Source: an uncultured beta proteobacterium (GTDB lineage: Bacteria; Pseudomonadota; Gammaproteobacteria; Burkholderiales; Burkholderiaceae_C). Taken from it: 64,000 nt of DNA. The DNA is taken from NCBI GenBank assembly GCA_903853895.1, contig CAINUX010000034.1:1-64000 (forward strand), in the 5' to 3' direction. The stretch's first letter is position 1; the number at the start of each line of letters is the position of its first letter. Under the pieces are notes generated by a model. The model was not told the origin of the DNA and did not search any database. It was given only the letters and a program-made list of their open reading frames with translations. This document shows positions 1-9,200 of the stretch, one piece after another. The position numbers were made by a program, and so were the translations under genes.

Positions 1-141
1 CGAGGGAAAACCAAATGAAAAGGAATCAGTAAAACCAGCAAACCGCTATAGTTATCCACAGTTGGCATTCAAGCTGCCAGCTTTAGCCCCTGGTCAGAAT
101 TCAATTGGCACAGGTGGCCAGTATTCGATTGGCGCCGACAC
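1..141. mobile_element. Probable right end of an IS21-type insertion sequence (partial)
   Basis: Positions 101-141 hold two degenerate direct repeats of about 20 bp (consensus GG[T/C]CAG[A/T]ATTC[A/G]ATTGGC), ending in GCCGACA. Read inward, the end starts TGTCGGCGCCAATCGAA. Several spaced terminal repeats behind a TGT end are typical of IS21-family elements. No istA or istB reading frame is visible because the window starts here. A frame open from position 2 to 163 has no recognisable product. The assignment is from pattern only. Confidence 0.4.
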
Positions 142-233: not shown

Positions 234-1562
234 CAGTAGTGTCCCAACGTTTTTCAGAGTAGAGCAAGCTGTTGAGGCTCGAAACTCGGATCTGAATTTG
301 TTGAGGGCGGCGTAAGTAGTTGATTTATTGGTGTTTGTTCAAACATGGTCAGGCTAAGGATTTGTAGGATTTCGTATAGGCTGTGGTGCTCAAGATGCAG
401 ACGTTTCTTTGCAATGGCGATCAGCACATAGGTGCACACCGCAATCCAGATTTGCGTCTTCACGGCGTTTTCGCTGGTGCCCAGAAACGCCTTGATGCGC
501 AAATGCTGTTTGATCCACTTGAAGAACAACTCGACTTTCCAGCGCTGACGATAAAGATCGGCGATGAGTTCGGGCCTCAATGCAAAGTTGTTGGTCAGAA
601 ATGTGATTCGCTTGCCGGCTTCGTCCTTGACCACGACACGTCGCAAGACCGCCGGATAGTCCTTGCTGGAATAGAACACCGTGAGCACGCCAGTTTGGTC
701 GCAGATCACCGATGTGGCGCTGCGGTCCACGGGGTTGGAATAGCGACGACGAAACTTGGTGTTGCTCTTGGCACGCGTCACGAAGAAGGCCTGCGCCTGG
801 TGAATGACATGAAGCCTGGTGAAGTCCAGATAGCCCCGGTCCATCAAGTAGAAGGCGCCTGCCTCGATCACCAGATCGTCCAGCACGTTGACCTCGTGGG
901 TCTTGCCGTCGGTGATATGAATGAAGCTGGGGATGGAGCCATGCAGGTCCAGCAACGTATGCAACTTGATGGCGGCTTTGGTGGAACGAAACGGTGCCCA
1001 TGGATGCAGTGACAAACAAAGATCGATGGTCGTAGCGTCGAACGCGTAGACGGTCGCATCCAGATCGATGCCCAAGGGTTCCTTGGCATACAGCGGTCTG
1101 GCCATGCCAATCAGATGTTGCGCGAAGTCGGCGTAGATTTGCCATGGACGGGTGGCGTTCGCATTGGCAAACGTGTTGCGAGAAATCGTCTGACAACGAA
1201 ACCCCATGTGGTACATCCGCTTGGCTTGCGCACGCAGGTTGACTTCGATGTCGCGCAAGGACTCCCGGTAGGTCAGTTGCGCAAACGCCATAGCAAAGAA
1301 CTGATCCAGGCACGAGAAGTCTTTGACCTTGTGATCGCCCCGGTGCCTGGCAACACATCTGCGAAAGGTGCTCATGGGCAGATAGGCCATGAGCTGAGAA
1401 AAAACGAGCTTGCCTTGATGCATACCGGCCCTTCGCGCTGTAGCGCAAAAGGTCATAAGTCTGACGCTCAACGTTCAAATCGAGACCAGACCGGAATTGC
1501 AAATTTGGCAAGTAAATCATTAACTTACGAAGCCCTGATGTGACAACGTTGGGACACTACTG
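234..1562 (-). mobile_element. Complete IS4-family insertion sequence, 1329 bp
   Basis: Perfect 18-bp inverted repeats (CAGTAGTGTCCCAACGTT) lie at 234-251 and, reverse-complemented, at 1545-1562. They enclose a single full-length DDE transposase gene. Flanking 9-bp direct repeats mark the target duplication. The element ends 35 bp before the start codon of the PAS chemoreceptor, so it separates that gene from whatever promoter lay upstream before insertion. Confidence 0.92.
254..1423 (-). CDS. IS4-family DDE transposase
   Basis: This transposase cuts and joins the ends of its own element. The C-terminal part shows the IS4 signature Y-x2-R-x3-E-x6-K (YRQRWKVELFFKWIK), which carries the catalytic Glu. 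Upstream there are Asp-centred blocks (DATTIDL and the later LMDRGY) expected for the other two catalytic acids. I start it at the ATG giving MHQGKLVFSQL (389 aa), because that matches the usual N-terminus of these transposases; a start 16 codons upstream is also open. It fills nearly all of the element and shows no frameshift, so it looks functional. Confidence 0.92.
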   Translation of the reverse strand: MHQGKLVFSQLMAYLPMSTFRRCVARHRGDHKVKDFSCLDQFFAMAFAQLTYRESLRDIEVNLRAQAKRMYHMGFRCQTISRNTFANANATRPWQIYADFAQHLIGMARPLYAKEPLGIDLDATVYAFDATTIDLCLSLHPWAPFRSTKAAIKLHTLLDLHGSIPSFIHITDGKTHEVNVLDDLVIEAGAFYLMDRGYLDFTRLHVIHQAQAFFVTRAKSNTKFRRRYSNPVDRSATSVICDQTGVLTVFYSSKDYPAVLRRVVVKDEAGKRITFLTNNFALRPELIADLYRQRWKVELFFKWIKQHLRIKAFLGTSENAVKTQIWIAVCTYVLIAIAKKRLHLEHHSLYEILQILSLTMFEQTPINQLLTPPSTNSDPSFEPQQLALL

Positions 1563-1597: not shown

Positions 1598-3175
1598 ATG
1601 CGTGCGAATCTTCCTGTCACGGACACTGAAATTATTCTCAGTGACAATTTCTCAATTGTTTCTACTACAGACTTAAATGGCAACATCACCTATGCCAATC
1701 CGTACTTTGTAGAAGTTAGCGGATTTTCAGTGCAGGAACTCCTGGGTGCGCCGCAGAATATCTTGCGTCACCCAGATATGCCCGTAGAAGCATTTGCAGA
1801 CCTGTGGGCCACCATCAAAACTGGGCGCCCTTGGACGGGCATGGTGAAAAACCGGGCCAAATCAGGCGATTTTTATTGGGTGCTGGCCAACGTCACGCCG
1901 GTGTATGCCGATGGACTACCGGTGGGCTATATGTCTGTGCGCACCAAACCCAGCCGTGATCAAGTGCAGTTAGCAGACGCCGTATACAAAGAAATTCGCG
2001 AAGGAAATCCTCGCAGGTTGCTCGTCCAAGACGGAAGCATAGTCAGCAAAGGCCTACTGGTGGGGCTTGGCCGTATTGGGATAGGACGCAGGATTCAACT
2101 GAGTGTAGCGGTGGCGTTGCTGGCGTTTGTTTTACTAACGATGCGTACTCTTTGGCCTGATGCGATACCTGTGGCCAACGCGCTTGACTACTCTATCGTC
2201 AGCATAGGGATCTTGGCGATGATTTACATCGCCATCAGCGTGCAGCGCAATGTGCTAAATCCGTTGGTGAAAATCACTCATGCGGCCCGAATTATGGCGG
2301 GGGGCGACTTAACACATGATATTTTGGCTGCAGACCAATCTGAATTGGGGCAATTGCAAAACGCATTGCGTCAAAGCAATATCAATCTGCGCAGCATCAT
2401 TGGTGACGTGCGTAGCAATTTTGAGAATATCAAACTGGCCACCCATGAAATTGCCGCTGGCAATATGGATTTGTCTAATCGAACTGAATCTCAGGCAGCT
2501 AGCCTAGAGGAAACGTCGGCTAGCATGAACGAGCTGTCAGGTGCCGTGCAGCAAAGTGCAAGTAGTGCCGCGTATGCCGATGAAATGGCCCAAGGTGCAT
2601 CCACGGTGGTCAAGCAGAGTGGTTCAGTCGTTGGGGAAACGGTGCTGACCATGAAGGAGATCAACACGGCGTCACACAAAATTGTGGACATCATCGATCT
2701 GATCAATGGCATTGCATTTCAGACGAACATCTTGGCGTTAAACGCAGCCGTGGAGGCTGCCAGGGCAGGCGAGCAAGGCCGGGGATTTGCCGTGGTCGCA
2801 TCAGAAGTCCGCAGTCTTGCCGGGCGCAGTGCAACCGCCGCCAAAGATATCAAAGAACTGATTGATGCCTCGATTAGCAAAGTGGACGTCGGCATGAAAC
2901 TAACCACTGAAGCTGGACACTCCATGCAAATGGCAATTGAGTCTGTGGAAAAAGTGACTACCGTCATGGCAGAGATTACCCAGGCTACTTGCACCCAAGG
3001 CGCCAATATTGGCCAGATCAGTGAATCTATCAAGTTACTGGACGACGTAACACAGCAAAATGCAGCGCTTGTAGAGGAAGCTGCAGCGGCAGCCGGAAAT
3101 CTGTCAGAGCAAACCACCAGGCTGACAAATGCATTGGCAATTTTCAAGCTGCCGAATGCAGGTACCAAGTCGTAG
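1598..3175 (+). CDS. Aer-type PAS-containing methyl-accepting chemotaxis protein
   Basis: This is an energy- or redox-type chemoreceptor that would signal to CheA/CheW. Residues about 12-115 form a PAS domain (LRHPDMP and [12 protein letters not shown], as in Aer). Two hydrophobic stretches near 165-185 and 198-216 flank a very short gap, so there is no periplasmic sensor domain. HAMP follows at about 217-270, then the cytoplasmic signalling domain with the conserved tip [20 protein letters not shown]. There is no NWETF-type C-terminal tether. The start follows the purine-rich GCGGGGGTGGT. Its neighbours are all mobile DNA: an IS4 element 35 bp upstream and a Tn7-like end 385 bp downstream, so it may be transposon cargo. 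No other chemotaxis gene is in the window. Confidence 0.9.
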
Positions 3176-3457: not shown

Positions 3458-3487
3458 AAAAAGTCGCACTGTTTACGACTTTTTTTG
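3458..3487 (+). terminator. Rho-independent-type terminator
   Basis: AAAAAGTCG and CGACTTTTT form a perfect 9-bp stem with a 9-nt loop, and the T run continues to 3486. The A/T-symmetric stem could act in both directions. No gene lies close upstream apart from the chemoreceptor. Confidence 0.55.
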
Positions 3488-3560
3488 TCCAGAATTAAAA
3501 CCAAGGTCTTCAACTGCACTTTGAGATCTGACTCACAAAGTCGATTGAAGGGAAAAAATG

Positions 3561-3623
3561 CGACGAACATTGCTCAAAATCGACGAACTATTTTCTCCGC
3601 GACGAACATTAATCACCCCAACA
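3561..3623 (-). mobile_element. Tn7-like transposon end at attTn7 downstream of glmS
   Basis: Read away from glmS, a TGT terminus begins exactly 25 nt after the glmS stop codon, which is the classical Tn7 insertion point. Within the next 63 nt the motif GTTCGTCG occurs three times (starting at 3607, 3588 and 3568), spaced 19-20 bp with A/T-rich flanks (AATGTTCGTCGC, TAGTTCGTCGAT, AATGTTCGTCGC). Spaced short repeats behind a TGT end are how TnsB-family transposases mark their ends. The element would extend left, towards position 1 and beyond the window. No tns gene is visible, so it may be the non-tns end or a remnant. Confidence 0.65.
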
Positions 3624-3647
3624 AAGAATTTTAAAGTATGAGCAACA

Positions 3648-5564
3648 TTACTCCACTGTGACCGACTTGGCCAAATTGCGTGGCTTATCGACGTCAGTCC
3701 CGCGCGCACAGGCGGCGTGGTAGGCCAATAGCTGCAAGGGCACCACGTGCAGCAGCGGTGACAACTCACCATAGTGTTCGGGCATACGGATCACATGCAT
3801 GCCTTCACCGCTCTCGATGCGCGTGTCGGCATCGGCCAGCACATACAGCACGCCACCGCGGGCGCGCACCTCGTGCAGGTTGCTCTTGAGCTTTTCCAAC
3901 AATGCGTCATTGGGTGCCACGGTGACCACCGGCATCTCGCTGGTGACCAGCGCCAGCGGGCCGTGCTTGAGCTCTCCGGCCGCATACGCTTCGGCGTGGA
4001 TGTAGGTGATCTCTTTGAGCTTCAAGGCGCCTTCCATGGCGATGGGGTAGTGCAGGCCGCGGCCCAGGAAAAGCGCGTTCTCTTTCTTTGCAAAGTCTTC
4101 AGACCAGCTGATGATTTGTGGCTCCAGCGCCAGCACGGCCTGCAGCGCAGCGGGCAGATGGCGCATGGCCTTGATGTGGCGTTGCTCCTCGCTCTCCGAC
4201 AAGCGCCCCTTGGCCTGTGCCAAGGCCAGCGTCAGCAGAAACAGCCCGGCCAATTGGGTGGTGAATGCCTTGGTGGATGCCACGCCAATCTCCACGCCCG
4301 CACGCGTCACGTAGGCCAGGCTGCACTCGCGCACCATGGCGCTGGTGGCCACGTTGCAGATGGTCAGTGTGTGGTGCATGCCCAGGCTTTTTGCGTGGCG
4401 CAGTGCGGCCAGCGTGTCGGCCGTCTCGCCCGATTGGGTGATAGTGACGACCAGGGTCTTGGGATTGGGCACCGATTCGCGGTAACGGTATTCACTGGCC
4501 ACTTCGACCTGAGTCGGTATTTTGGCAATGCTTTCGAGCCAGTATTTGGCAGTACAGCCACTGTAATAACTGGTGCCGCAGGCCAGGATGAGCACGGAGT
4601 CGATTTCGGCAAACACACGGGCCGCGTTGGCGCCCGGTGCGTGATTCATCTGCTGGTCAAACAGCTCGGGGACGATGCTTTCCACCCCTTCCAAGGTGTC
4701 GGCAATGGCACGCGGCTGCTCGAAAATTTCTTTCTGCATGTAGTGGCGATACGGCCCCAACTCGGCTGCACCGCTATGGGCCAGCACGGTTTTGACAGGC
4801 CGTTGCGCGGGGGCTACCGGCTTGCGGGTCTTGTCAATCAACCAGTACTTGCCCAACTGCACGTCGACCATATCGCCTTCGTCCAGGTACACGATCTGGT
4901 CTGTCACGCCAGCCAGTGCCATGGCATCGCTAGCCAAAAAGTGCTCTTGTCCATCTTTGCCAACGCCCAGAATCAACGGTGAACCAGCACGCGCGCCGAT
5001 CAGCCGATGGGGTTCGTCCTTGCAAAACACGGCAATCGCAAAGGCGCCATGCAGCTGGGTTACAGATTGCTGTACCGCTTCAAACAGATCGCCGTCATAG
5101 AGGCTGTCCACCAGATGGGCGATGACTTCGGTATCGGTCTGGCTGACGAACACATAGCCCTTGGCCTTGAGTGCGGCGCGCAGTTCGTCGTGGTTTTCAA
5201 TGATGCCGTTGTGCACCAGCGCAATGCGCCCTGCCCGCTCATGCGCATCCGTACCGGGACCATGGCTGAAGTGCGGGTGGGCGTTGCTGACCGAGGGTGC
5301 CCCATGGGTGGCCCAGCGCGTATGGGCAATGCCCAAATGACCGCCCAAGCCTCCGGTCTCTGATCCGGGTGCCACTTGCAACGCCAACTCTGCCACCCGC
5401 GAGGTGCTGCGGGCACGGCGCAATCCGCTGTGGGCTGCGTCTGTGCCCTGCGCGTAGACCGCAACGCCGCAGGAGTCATAGCCACGGTATTCCAGCCGCT
5501 CCAGCCCTTGCACCAAGACCGGAACAATATTGCGGTGGGACACCGCGCCGACGATTCCACACAT
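3648..5564 (-). CDS. glmS: Glutamine-fructose-6-phosphate aminotransferase (isomerizing)
   Basis: GlmS makes glucosamine-6-phosphate from fructose-6-phosphate and glutamine, the first step to UDP-GlcNAc for peptidoglycan and lipopolysaccharide. The start at ATG-TGT gives [12 protein letters not shown] with the catalytic Cys2 exposed after Met removal, and is preceded by AGGAGT. Residues 2 to about 225 are the class II glutaminase. Two SIS sugar-isomerase domains follow (ACGTSYYSG, then [18 protein letters not shown]). The C-terminus is the conserved AKSVTVE. At 638 aa it is slightly longer than E. coli GlmS (609). Its 3' end is the target recognised by Tn7 TnsD, and a Tn7-like end sits 25 nt downstream. 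glmU lies 13 kb away. Confidence 0.97.
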
Positions 5565-5646
5565 AGCAGTACTCCTATCCAATTCGAAGATGGGCGAATC
5601 GTATCTAGCATTCAATATACTTACTGATCTATTTGTTGTCTATTTT

Positions 5647-6284: not shown

Positions 6285-9200
6285 TTGAATTTGGGCCCAG
6301 ATACCGACAAACTTTGCCAAACAGCGTGGCGGCTCTACGAGCAGGGCGAGTTGGACCAGGCCATCGCCATCGCACACGATGCAAGGGAGCGCGCGCAGCA
6401 ACCTTTGCAGGTATTGAATTGCTGCGCAGCACTGGGCTGGTTTCTCGTTGAAAAAGGCGATCTTATAGCGGCCGAAGATGTTTTGCTGCCAGCCCTCGCC
6501 AGCGCTCCGCACGAAGCCATACTGCAGTGGCGGGTGGGTGCTTTGCAGCACAAGAAAGGGAACCTTGACCAAGCCATACACCATCTCGAGCGCGCGCTTG
6601 CGATAGACCCAGCCCTGGATGAAGCCGCGGCGTCCTTGGCTTGGATGCTCCATGATCGGGGCAGACTCGCAGAAGCCTGCGTGTGGGTTCGGCACGCACT
6701 GGCGCGGCGTGCAACGCCCGAACGCCAGACACAGTTAGGGTGGTTTTTGCTGCTGCAGGACAAAGCGGCAGAGGCAATTCCTCTGTTTCAGGAGTCGTTG
6801 AACGGTGCTCCGCATATGGAGAATACCTATGTGCAATTAGGGCGAGCACTGAGCGAAGTGGGCATGAGAGCGCAGGCGCTTCAGGTTCTCACCGATGCGC
6901 TGGCCCGGTTTCCACAGTCGCCAGACCTGATGCTGGCCATTGCATGGCAGTACCGGGGTGTGCAAGACTTCCCAAAAGTACGGCCCATCGCCCAACAAGT
7001 GATCGCGTTGCAACCCCGTTGCGCCAACGCGTGGTTGCTGCTTGGCCTGGCCGAACAGGGCTTGGGCAACACCGACGTTGCAGCACAGCATTTTCGCCGT
7101 GCGTTAGAACTGGATGCATCTACCGTCCACGCAGCCATTCCCCTTGCAAGTTATCTGCGCGACCGGCGCCGCTTTGCACAAGCGCTTGCCGTCATTGGCG
7201 ACGTTTTGCACCACCACGGCGCCCACGCTGAATTGCACGAATTGCAGGCACAACTCGCTCTGGATATCGGCGACATTGCATTGGCACGCCGCCACATTCA
7301 TCAGCTGCTAGCCAAGGACCGACGGAATGGCCGTTTGTGGCATTTGTTGGCAATGACATTGCAGAAGCGCGACCGCATCTCGATTGCCACTGCTGCAGTA
7401 CACCGCGCACTCCGATACCTACCGTACAGCGCAGAGTCGTGGGAACTGGCGGCCTGGCTAGGCATAGCAGACGGACGCGTGGACCAGGCTCGTCTGGCAC
7501 TGAAGCAATTGGTGAAGCGATGCCCCGGCATGCCCGATCTGGACATCCATGCAGCGTTCATTCTGGCTGCCTGCGGCGACCTGTGCGAAGCTGCGACGCA
7601 TGCAGACGCTGCAGTGGCTCGTCAACCACAGTCGGCACAAGCTCTGCGCGCTTTGGGCCATGTGCGCCATCAACAAGGCCACCTTCACGAAGCCGAGCGT
7701 CTGACGCGACATGCTTTGGCTTGCGACCCGGAGTTTGCCGCCCCCTACTTGCGGCAATTGGGTTGGATTCAGCGCGCACGCGGGCAACTGACCGACGCGG
7801 CTGACACTTTTCAACAAGCGTGCGACTTGGATGATTTCGATGCGATTTGCGTTTGCGAGTGCGCAGAAACCCAGGCACTTGGGGGTAACCTTGAAAAAGC
7901 CATGGTTACCCTCCAGCGCGCACGCGAAATCCAGCCCTCAGAGCCCAAGGTTCAATTGCTCCATGCACAGCTTTTGCGCGACAGTGGTCCGACAAGCTGG
8001 AGTCAGGCTATTGTGGTTTGCGCCGAATTGTTGCGCAACCGCACACTGGTGCAAGGCGCGACCTTCGTCTTGATGGGCATCGCCGCGCAAGGCAATGCCC
8101 AGGCGCAACAGGCATTGTTGCAACTGAAGCGTTCTGAGCGACTCAAGCACTACCAAACGTGCCTGGAATCCAGTCAGGCTAGAGGTAGCAACTCAGAGTA
8201 TCTGGCCCTTGGTCGCTTGGCACTACGTGAGTTTCCAGACGATGTTTTTGTGAAGACGGCAGCGCTCTGCGCCCAAGGCACCTCAGATGCGACAGGTGCA
8301 TCTGAATTGGCGCGTCAAACCAGGGAATGGAGTCGCTATCTTGCAATGCGCGCTGGTACGTGCCAATACGACGCGCACCGACCTGACCCGCTAAACACCG
8401 GGCGCCTGCGCATTGCCTATGTAGCAGCCCACTTTCACCGATCACTACTCATGCGCGTTCTGACTGCGCACAATTTCGACGCTGTGGATGTGTTCCTCTA
8501 CTGTGACGTCCCGACTGAGAGTCTGGGCGAACTGGCGGAAAAGGTCTATCTTCAAGCCCTACACGGACAAGATCTTGCGGCCTCCATGCACGCAAACCAG
8601 ATCGATGTCGCCATTGATACGGTCGGTGTCGGCCCTTTTTTTGGTCAAGATGCAGTGTTGCTGCAATTTGCCCGCCGTGTAGCCCCGGTGCAATGCGCCT
8701 GGCTGGGTAGCTGGGCAAGCGGTGGTGGCGTTTTCGATTTTCTGCTCAGCGATACCCATGCCGCACCCGAGGCGAACGACTGGCTCTACGAAGAAGGCAT
8801 CGCCAGACTGGCGGGAGGGCAATGGTGTTGGGAGCCACCGGCCTGCGCTCCAGCTATTTCGCCCCCACCCCACCTCAAGGACAGTGTGGTGACCTTGGGC
8901 TGTGCGGTGCGGGCTTTTCGCATTTCCGCACGCGCCATCCAGGTCTGGGTTCGCCTGCTTTTGCGCCTGCCCAACACGCAACTGGTGCTCATGGGGCCGC
9001 ATGGCCAGAATGCGCAATTCCGCATGGAATTATTCACCGCAATGACAACCGCGGGACTTGAACCAGGACGTGTCGCCTTTCAGGCGCAGTGCGCCTACCA
9101 CGACTATCTGGCCAGCTACAGCGCGATTGACATTGCTCTGGACAGTTTTCCAGCCAACGGCGGGTTGTGCCTGCTTGATGCACTTTGGATGGGCGTACCG

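Follow-up and report, generated by a model that had tools for sequence, protein, structure and literature searches.

The question raised by this locus is whether the short repeats that follow glmS form the end of a Tn7-like transposon and, if so, what became of the element to which they belonged. The window, that is, the whole 64-kb stretch of DNA analyzed here, belongs to a draft genome designated G000. Throughout, element A denotes the putative Tn7-like element with GTTCGTCG sites, and B-type denotes Tn7-like ends of the AAAGTCGTAAACA type.

The terminus and repeat array beside glmS

The following features lie at the junction between glmS and the array.

3648..5615, minus strand: glmS, the gene that bears attTn7; SIS and glutamine amidotransferase domains, protein ending in NLAKSVTVE
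3624..3647, minus strand: spacer of 24 nt from the glmS stop to the terminus; AAGAA at 3624-3628 is a candidate copy of a 5-bp target duplication
3616..3623, minus strand: element A terminus, 8 bp, TGTTGGGG (exact sequence), in the TGT/ACA 8-bp style that PMC11406308 gives for Tn7-like ends
3600..3607, minus strand: putative TnsB site 1, exact copy of the core GTTCGTCG
3581..3588, minus strand: putative TnsB site 2, exact copy of GTTCGTCG, 19 bp from site 1
3561..3568, minus strand: putative TnsB site 3, exact copy of GTTCGTCG, 20 bp from site 2

The initial annotation had placed a TGT terminus 25 nt past the glmS stop, with three GTTCGTCG-type repeats spaced 19-20 bp behind it. The copies proved exact, and the distance is correct if the terminus base is counted as the 25th, with 24 nt lying between; the corresponding distance for Tn7R in E. 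coli NZ_CP033762 is 25 nt, and both agree with the roughly 25 bp expected of Tn7. As a sequence pattern, a TGT/ACA 8-bp terminus is accompanied by an array of putative TnsB sites about 20 bp apart. GTTCGTCG itself occurs six times in the 64-kb window against 1.89 expected, a count reached in 1 of 100 shuffles, and the array is the sole instance in the 64 kb of an 8-mer repeated three times at 17-24 bp steps. When the 250 nt after glmS were dinucleotide-shuffled 20,000 times, triple 8-mer arrays never appeared, and two or more pairs appeared in 218 shuffles.

According to PMC11406308, Tn7-like termini are 8 bp long and typically TGT/ACA, and closely spaced or overlapping TnsB sites tend to mark the att-facing end. 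The site, the TGT terminus, and the regular array all fit a TnsB-type end at attTn7, as had been proposed, and Tn7-type ends occupy the same place in relatives. Judged from its sequence and position, the array is very probably the glmS-proximal end of a Tn7-like transposon. By analogy with the Tn7 family, a TnsD-type protein would have bound the conserved 3' end of glmS and, via TnsC, would have steered TnsA/TnsB to insert about 25 bp past the stop; TnsB would recognize the three GTTCGTCG sites and cut at the TGT terminus.

Insertion sequences of the IS21 and IS481 types may likewise carry TGT termini and contain internal sites in repeated copies. The array could accordingly be read as the end of such an insertion sequence, its place by glmS being coincidental. 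An IS21-looking repeat at the contig start, a pair of GTGTCAGC repeats after glmS in genome G022 that could be such an insertion sequence, and the TGT ends that PMC11406308 describes as common also to IS481-type elements lend this reading some credit. Nevertheless, it is improbable: the terminus lies at the Tn7 insertion distance (24 vs 25 nt), the array is single-copy in the G000 draft, and no insertion-sequence ORF lies behind it. In an IS21 element, istA and istB would adjoin the end, whereas here the first ORF encountered inward encodes a chemoreceptor.

Arrays and Tn7-type ends in related genomes

The initial annotation had proposed a search for the same repeats beside glmS in uninserted relatives. 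The GTTCGTCG array was found within 300 nt after glmS at none of the 29 loci read in 28 congeneric genomes, which leaves the Tn7-like end standing. These loci comprise the best 30 glmS matches (85 of 101 genomes matched) and a second copy in G044, with locus L028 left out because its contig stops short of the glmS stop. At four loci (G058, G033, G007, and G059), one and the same gene comes next after glmS; we take it to be MobB-like, and its recurrence suggests that the site is unoccupied there. The three repeats might instead serve the host, in regulation or as a terminator downstream of glmS. For the 62 nt that follow the array, a hairpin can be drawn (-15.1 kcal/mol), with a stability equaled by 17 of 200 shuffles; a host feature of this kind is nevertheless highly improbable, as the array is absent from all 29 loci, in which glmS is conserved.

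An exact spaced GTTCGTCG pair is present in 3 of 103 genus genomes and adjoins glmS only in that of the window; the pairs of G003 and G015 lie inside open frames, and the glmS matches of those two genomes are on different contigs. Spaced GTTCGTCG pairs alone are at chance level, as a reversed control pattern gave 12 matches, by our count, against 4 in the 103 genus genomes. The standout feature is the triple at its place by glmS, not the spaced pairs. Lone GTTCGTCG words 429-579 nt after glmS in G022, G046, and G031 were taken as chance. Separately, G022 (L040, after position 7846) carries a third repeat type, GTGTCAGC, in two copies 20 bp apart and about 40 nt after glmS.

A GTDB-wide scan for the triple pattern returned at least 118 loci. 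Among the matches listed, 97 of 118 were inside an open frame and 21 outside, and tblastn placed glmS near the triple in 1 of 118, a spirochaete locus (L174). It was rejected as a parallel case: what follows glmS there, at a distance of about 300 nt, is a palindromic tandem repeat of 21 bp and no Tn7-type end, and similar repeats occur on another contig. The repeats concerned, AAAACGTTCGTCGCGACGAAC and variants, lie at 5800-6140 of L174 and in L139, on the other contig of the spirochaete.

Ends of a different type were found at the same place in congeners. Tandem AAAGTCGTAAACA pairs are present in 4 of 103 genus genomes (G009, G053, G114, and G040), every one of them beside glmS, and the control pattern gave none. 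In G053, G114, and G040, a third AAAGTCGTAAACA copy lies 68-69 bp beyond the 20-bp pair. Single copies lie near glmS in G003 and, as a partial match, in G044. Read from the sequences, the B-type terminus follows the glmS stop by 21 nt in G009, 24 nt in G053, and 23 nt in G114 and G040; the distances in G003 and G044 are 31 and 27 nt. Only the G053 terminus starts with TGT; those of G009, G114, and G040 start with TAT.

The G114 end leads through a segment of about 18 kb to a TnsD (PF15978) gene and a TniQ gene, and this arrangement links the B-type end by position to a Tn7-type targeting protein. The segment encodes defense-like proteins (PIN domain, UvrD helicase, AbiTii, SLOG/TIR, and ThsB-like TIR) and a tyrosine recombinase. 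The search for TnsB gave no match in G114, which lies outside the 11 of 103 genus genomes that were positive, some weakly. In G040, a contig other than that of the B-type end carries tnsA and the beginning of a tnsB-like gene. As an observation in its own right, L059 (G114:C9, 966-19999) and L061 show defense-rich cargo (AbiTii, UvrD/IrrE-like, SLOG/TIR, and ThsB-like) ahead of tnsD and tniQ.

DNA behind the array and the fate of the element

The DNA to the left of the array contains the following features.

3469..3498, minus strand: probable relic terminus plus first site, AAAGTCGTAAACAG-type (B-type); exact 14-mer, with 25 of 30 nt as in the glmS-proximal termini of G114 and G040
1598..3175, plus strand: chemoreceptor gene with PAS, HAMP, and MCPsignal domain matches, possible cargo
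234..1562, minus strand: IS4-type insertion sequence, ends read by eye, with a 9-bp target duplication ACAGAAAAT at 225-233 and 1563-1571
1..141, no strand assigned: repeat end where the contig stops, identical to G000:C35:1-141 and G000:C175:1-140

The probable relic lies about 125 bp inside the TGTTGGGG terminus and 62 bp past site 3. AAAGTCGTAAACAG has one exact copy in the window (3469-3482), and a copy with at most two mismatches arose in 12 of 100 window shuffles. The 16 nt preceding it agree with the G114 and G040 termini at 11 positions, a score that 0.03% of positions reach in the 3.6 kb examined, although these match figures are somewhat selected because the motif was noticed by comparing the same loci. 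Agreement with G053 (10), G044 (11), and G009 (9 of 16) is also above that of most positions; for G003 (7) and E. coli Tn7 (4), the same 16 nt are nothing outstanding among positions in the 3.6 kb. On balance, this comparison favors a reading of 3469-3498 as the relic of an older B-type element, with two Tn7-like families stacked at one attTn7. Since the probable B-type relic lies behind the array, one attTn7 apparently served two element families whose TnsB sites differ; the B-type element would have inserted before element A, which would later have lost its body.

This affects what can be said of the DNA further left. The neighborhood described by the initial annotation, namely a chemoreceptor, an IS4-type element, and an IS21-type repeat, is present as claimed, the last of these labels being our assumption from the style of its end. 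This DNA may be cargo of element A, but the probable B-type relic separates the array from the chemoreceptor, so the left-hand DNA may instead come from the host or from an older element. The initial proposal is thus supported in part, for the end at attTn7; the DNA to its left is only possible cargo. A chemoreceptor about 0.9 kb from glmS in G047 was rejected as an ortholog: identity is 49% over residues 200-520, but its orientation relative to glmS is opposite. The IS4-type element, whose transposase ORF spans 254-1471, came in later, on the upstream side of the chemoreceptor gene. With its clean 9-bp duplication (225-1571) just upstream of that gene, it may affect chemoreceptor expression.

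The arrangement beyond the array was compared with G051, whose glmS is 92% identical over its 3' part and in which an M20 peptidase gene converges on glmS with 142 nt between the two. In G000, the M20 peptidase region (87% identity to G051) is on contig C178, apart from the glmS contig. Synteny on C178 breaks about 50 nt past the M20 gene; from there to its end the contig consists of unrelated DNA that includes a gene for a GNAT acetyltransferase, and no Tn7-type end was recognized on this tail. The location of glmS and the M20 gene on separate contigs fits an insertion between them, the far boundary of which lies beyond view.

The search of G000 for transposition genes covered TnsD, TnsB, TniQ, and Mu-transpos_C. 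TnsD had no match in G000 (4 of 103 genus genomes were positive, 3 of them above the cut-off), nor had TnsB (11 of 103 positive, some weakly), and the positives among congeners indicate that both searches work. TniQ and Mu-transpos_C likewise gave no match in the draft, and 14 control genomes were equally silent. A second GTTCGTCG end was not found in the G000 draft, in which the contig breaks off 3.6 kb from the array, well short of the roughly 150 kb over which the initial annotation proposed to look for it. GTTCGT pairs gave four matches in G000, two of which are the array itself, and the control pattern gave five; the pairs on C228 and C199 were rejected as a second end, both being inside open frames, and the GTTCGTCG pairs of G003 and G015 were rejected as second ends on the same ground. 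The triple occurs in 2 of 399 order genomes, G000 and G459, and that of G459 was discarded as a second end, being an 18-bp GC-rich repeat. In no genome searched were GTTCGTCG sites joined to a tns gene. Plasmids gave no match to the 163-bp end; compared with the G114 TnsD, they gave 61 records, all below 60% identity. As neither tns genes nor a second end were found, element A appears incomplete or decayed.

A variant of the Tn7 reading is that element A is intact, with its tns genes and second end in unassembled DNA. The draft consists of 292 contigs and is 93.55% complete, and one repeat is common to the starts of contigs C34, C35, and C175, such that the contig of the window ends inside it, 3.6 kb from the array. 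Still, an intact element seems unlikely: not one of TnsD, TnsB, TniQ, and the second end was found in the draft, and with the probable B-type terminus only 62 bp past site 3, the body of element A has no room at that point unless it includes the relic. The element is probably incomplete, and what lies behind its end is likely a fossil of another Tn7-type element.

We tentatively propose, with slightly less than even confidence, that the GTTCGTCG-type and AAAGTCGTAAACA-type families share the glmS site in one genus and that their stacked ends erode into layered fossils; the families could stack because their TnsB sites differ and neither would recognize the ends of the other. A limited literature search gave no obvious report of Tn7-like ends stacked at glmS or surviving there as relics. 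The locus adds a Tn7-type end at the classical attTn7 with a site sequence tied to no transposase found, and it suggests that the post-glmS DNA in one genus retains short termini left by earlier insertions. Solo ends of this kind could provide a tally of insertions into a safe chromosomal site. This kind of mobile DNA is well known and ordinary, and the basic understanding of Tn7 is unchanged.

Comparison with known systems

A close likeness is to the right end of Tn7, which shares the TGT terminus, the closely spaced sites, the distance of 24-25 nt after the glmS stop, and the side on which it lies. The core differs, being AATAAAGTCTTAAACT in Tn7 and GTTCGTCG here, and PMC11406308 reports four TnsB sites for Tn7R, whereas three are seen here. 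In the Tn7 of E. coli NZ_CP033762, tnsA starts 134 bp inside the terminus; the window instead has a chemoreceptor gene and no tns gene.

A comM-associated Tn7-like element of the Tn6022 type in G102 has TnsA, TnsB, TnsC, and TniQ genes. Unlike element A, it uses another target site, presumably ComM as judged from the flanking ORF, and G102 has no spaced GTTCGTCG pair. The TnsA-TnsB-TnsC-TniQ cluster lies in L186/L187 (G102:C1, about 4.571-4.578 Mb) and adjoins an apparent comM fragment.

The B-type ends of G114, G053, G009, and G040 differ from element A in their site core and in that three of the four termini begin with TAT, not TGT. They nonetheless occupy the same place after glmS, and in G114 such an end leads to cargo, tnsD, and tniQ.
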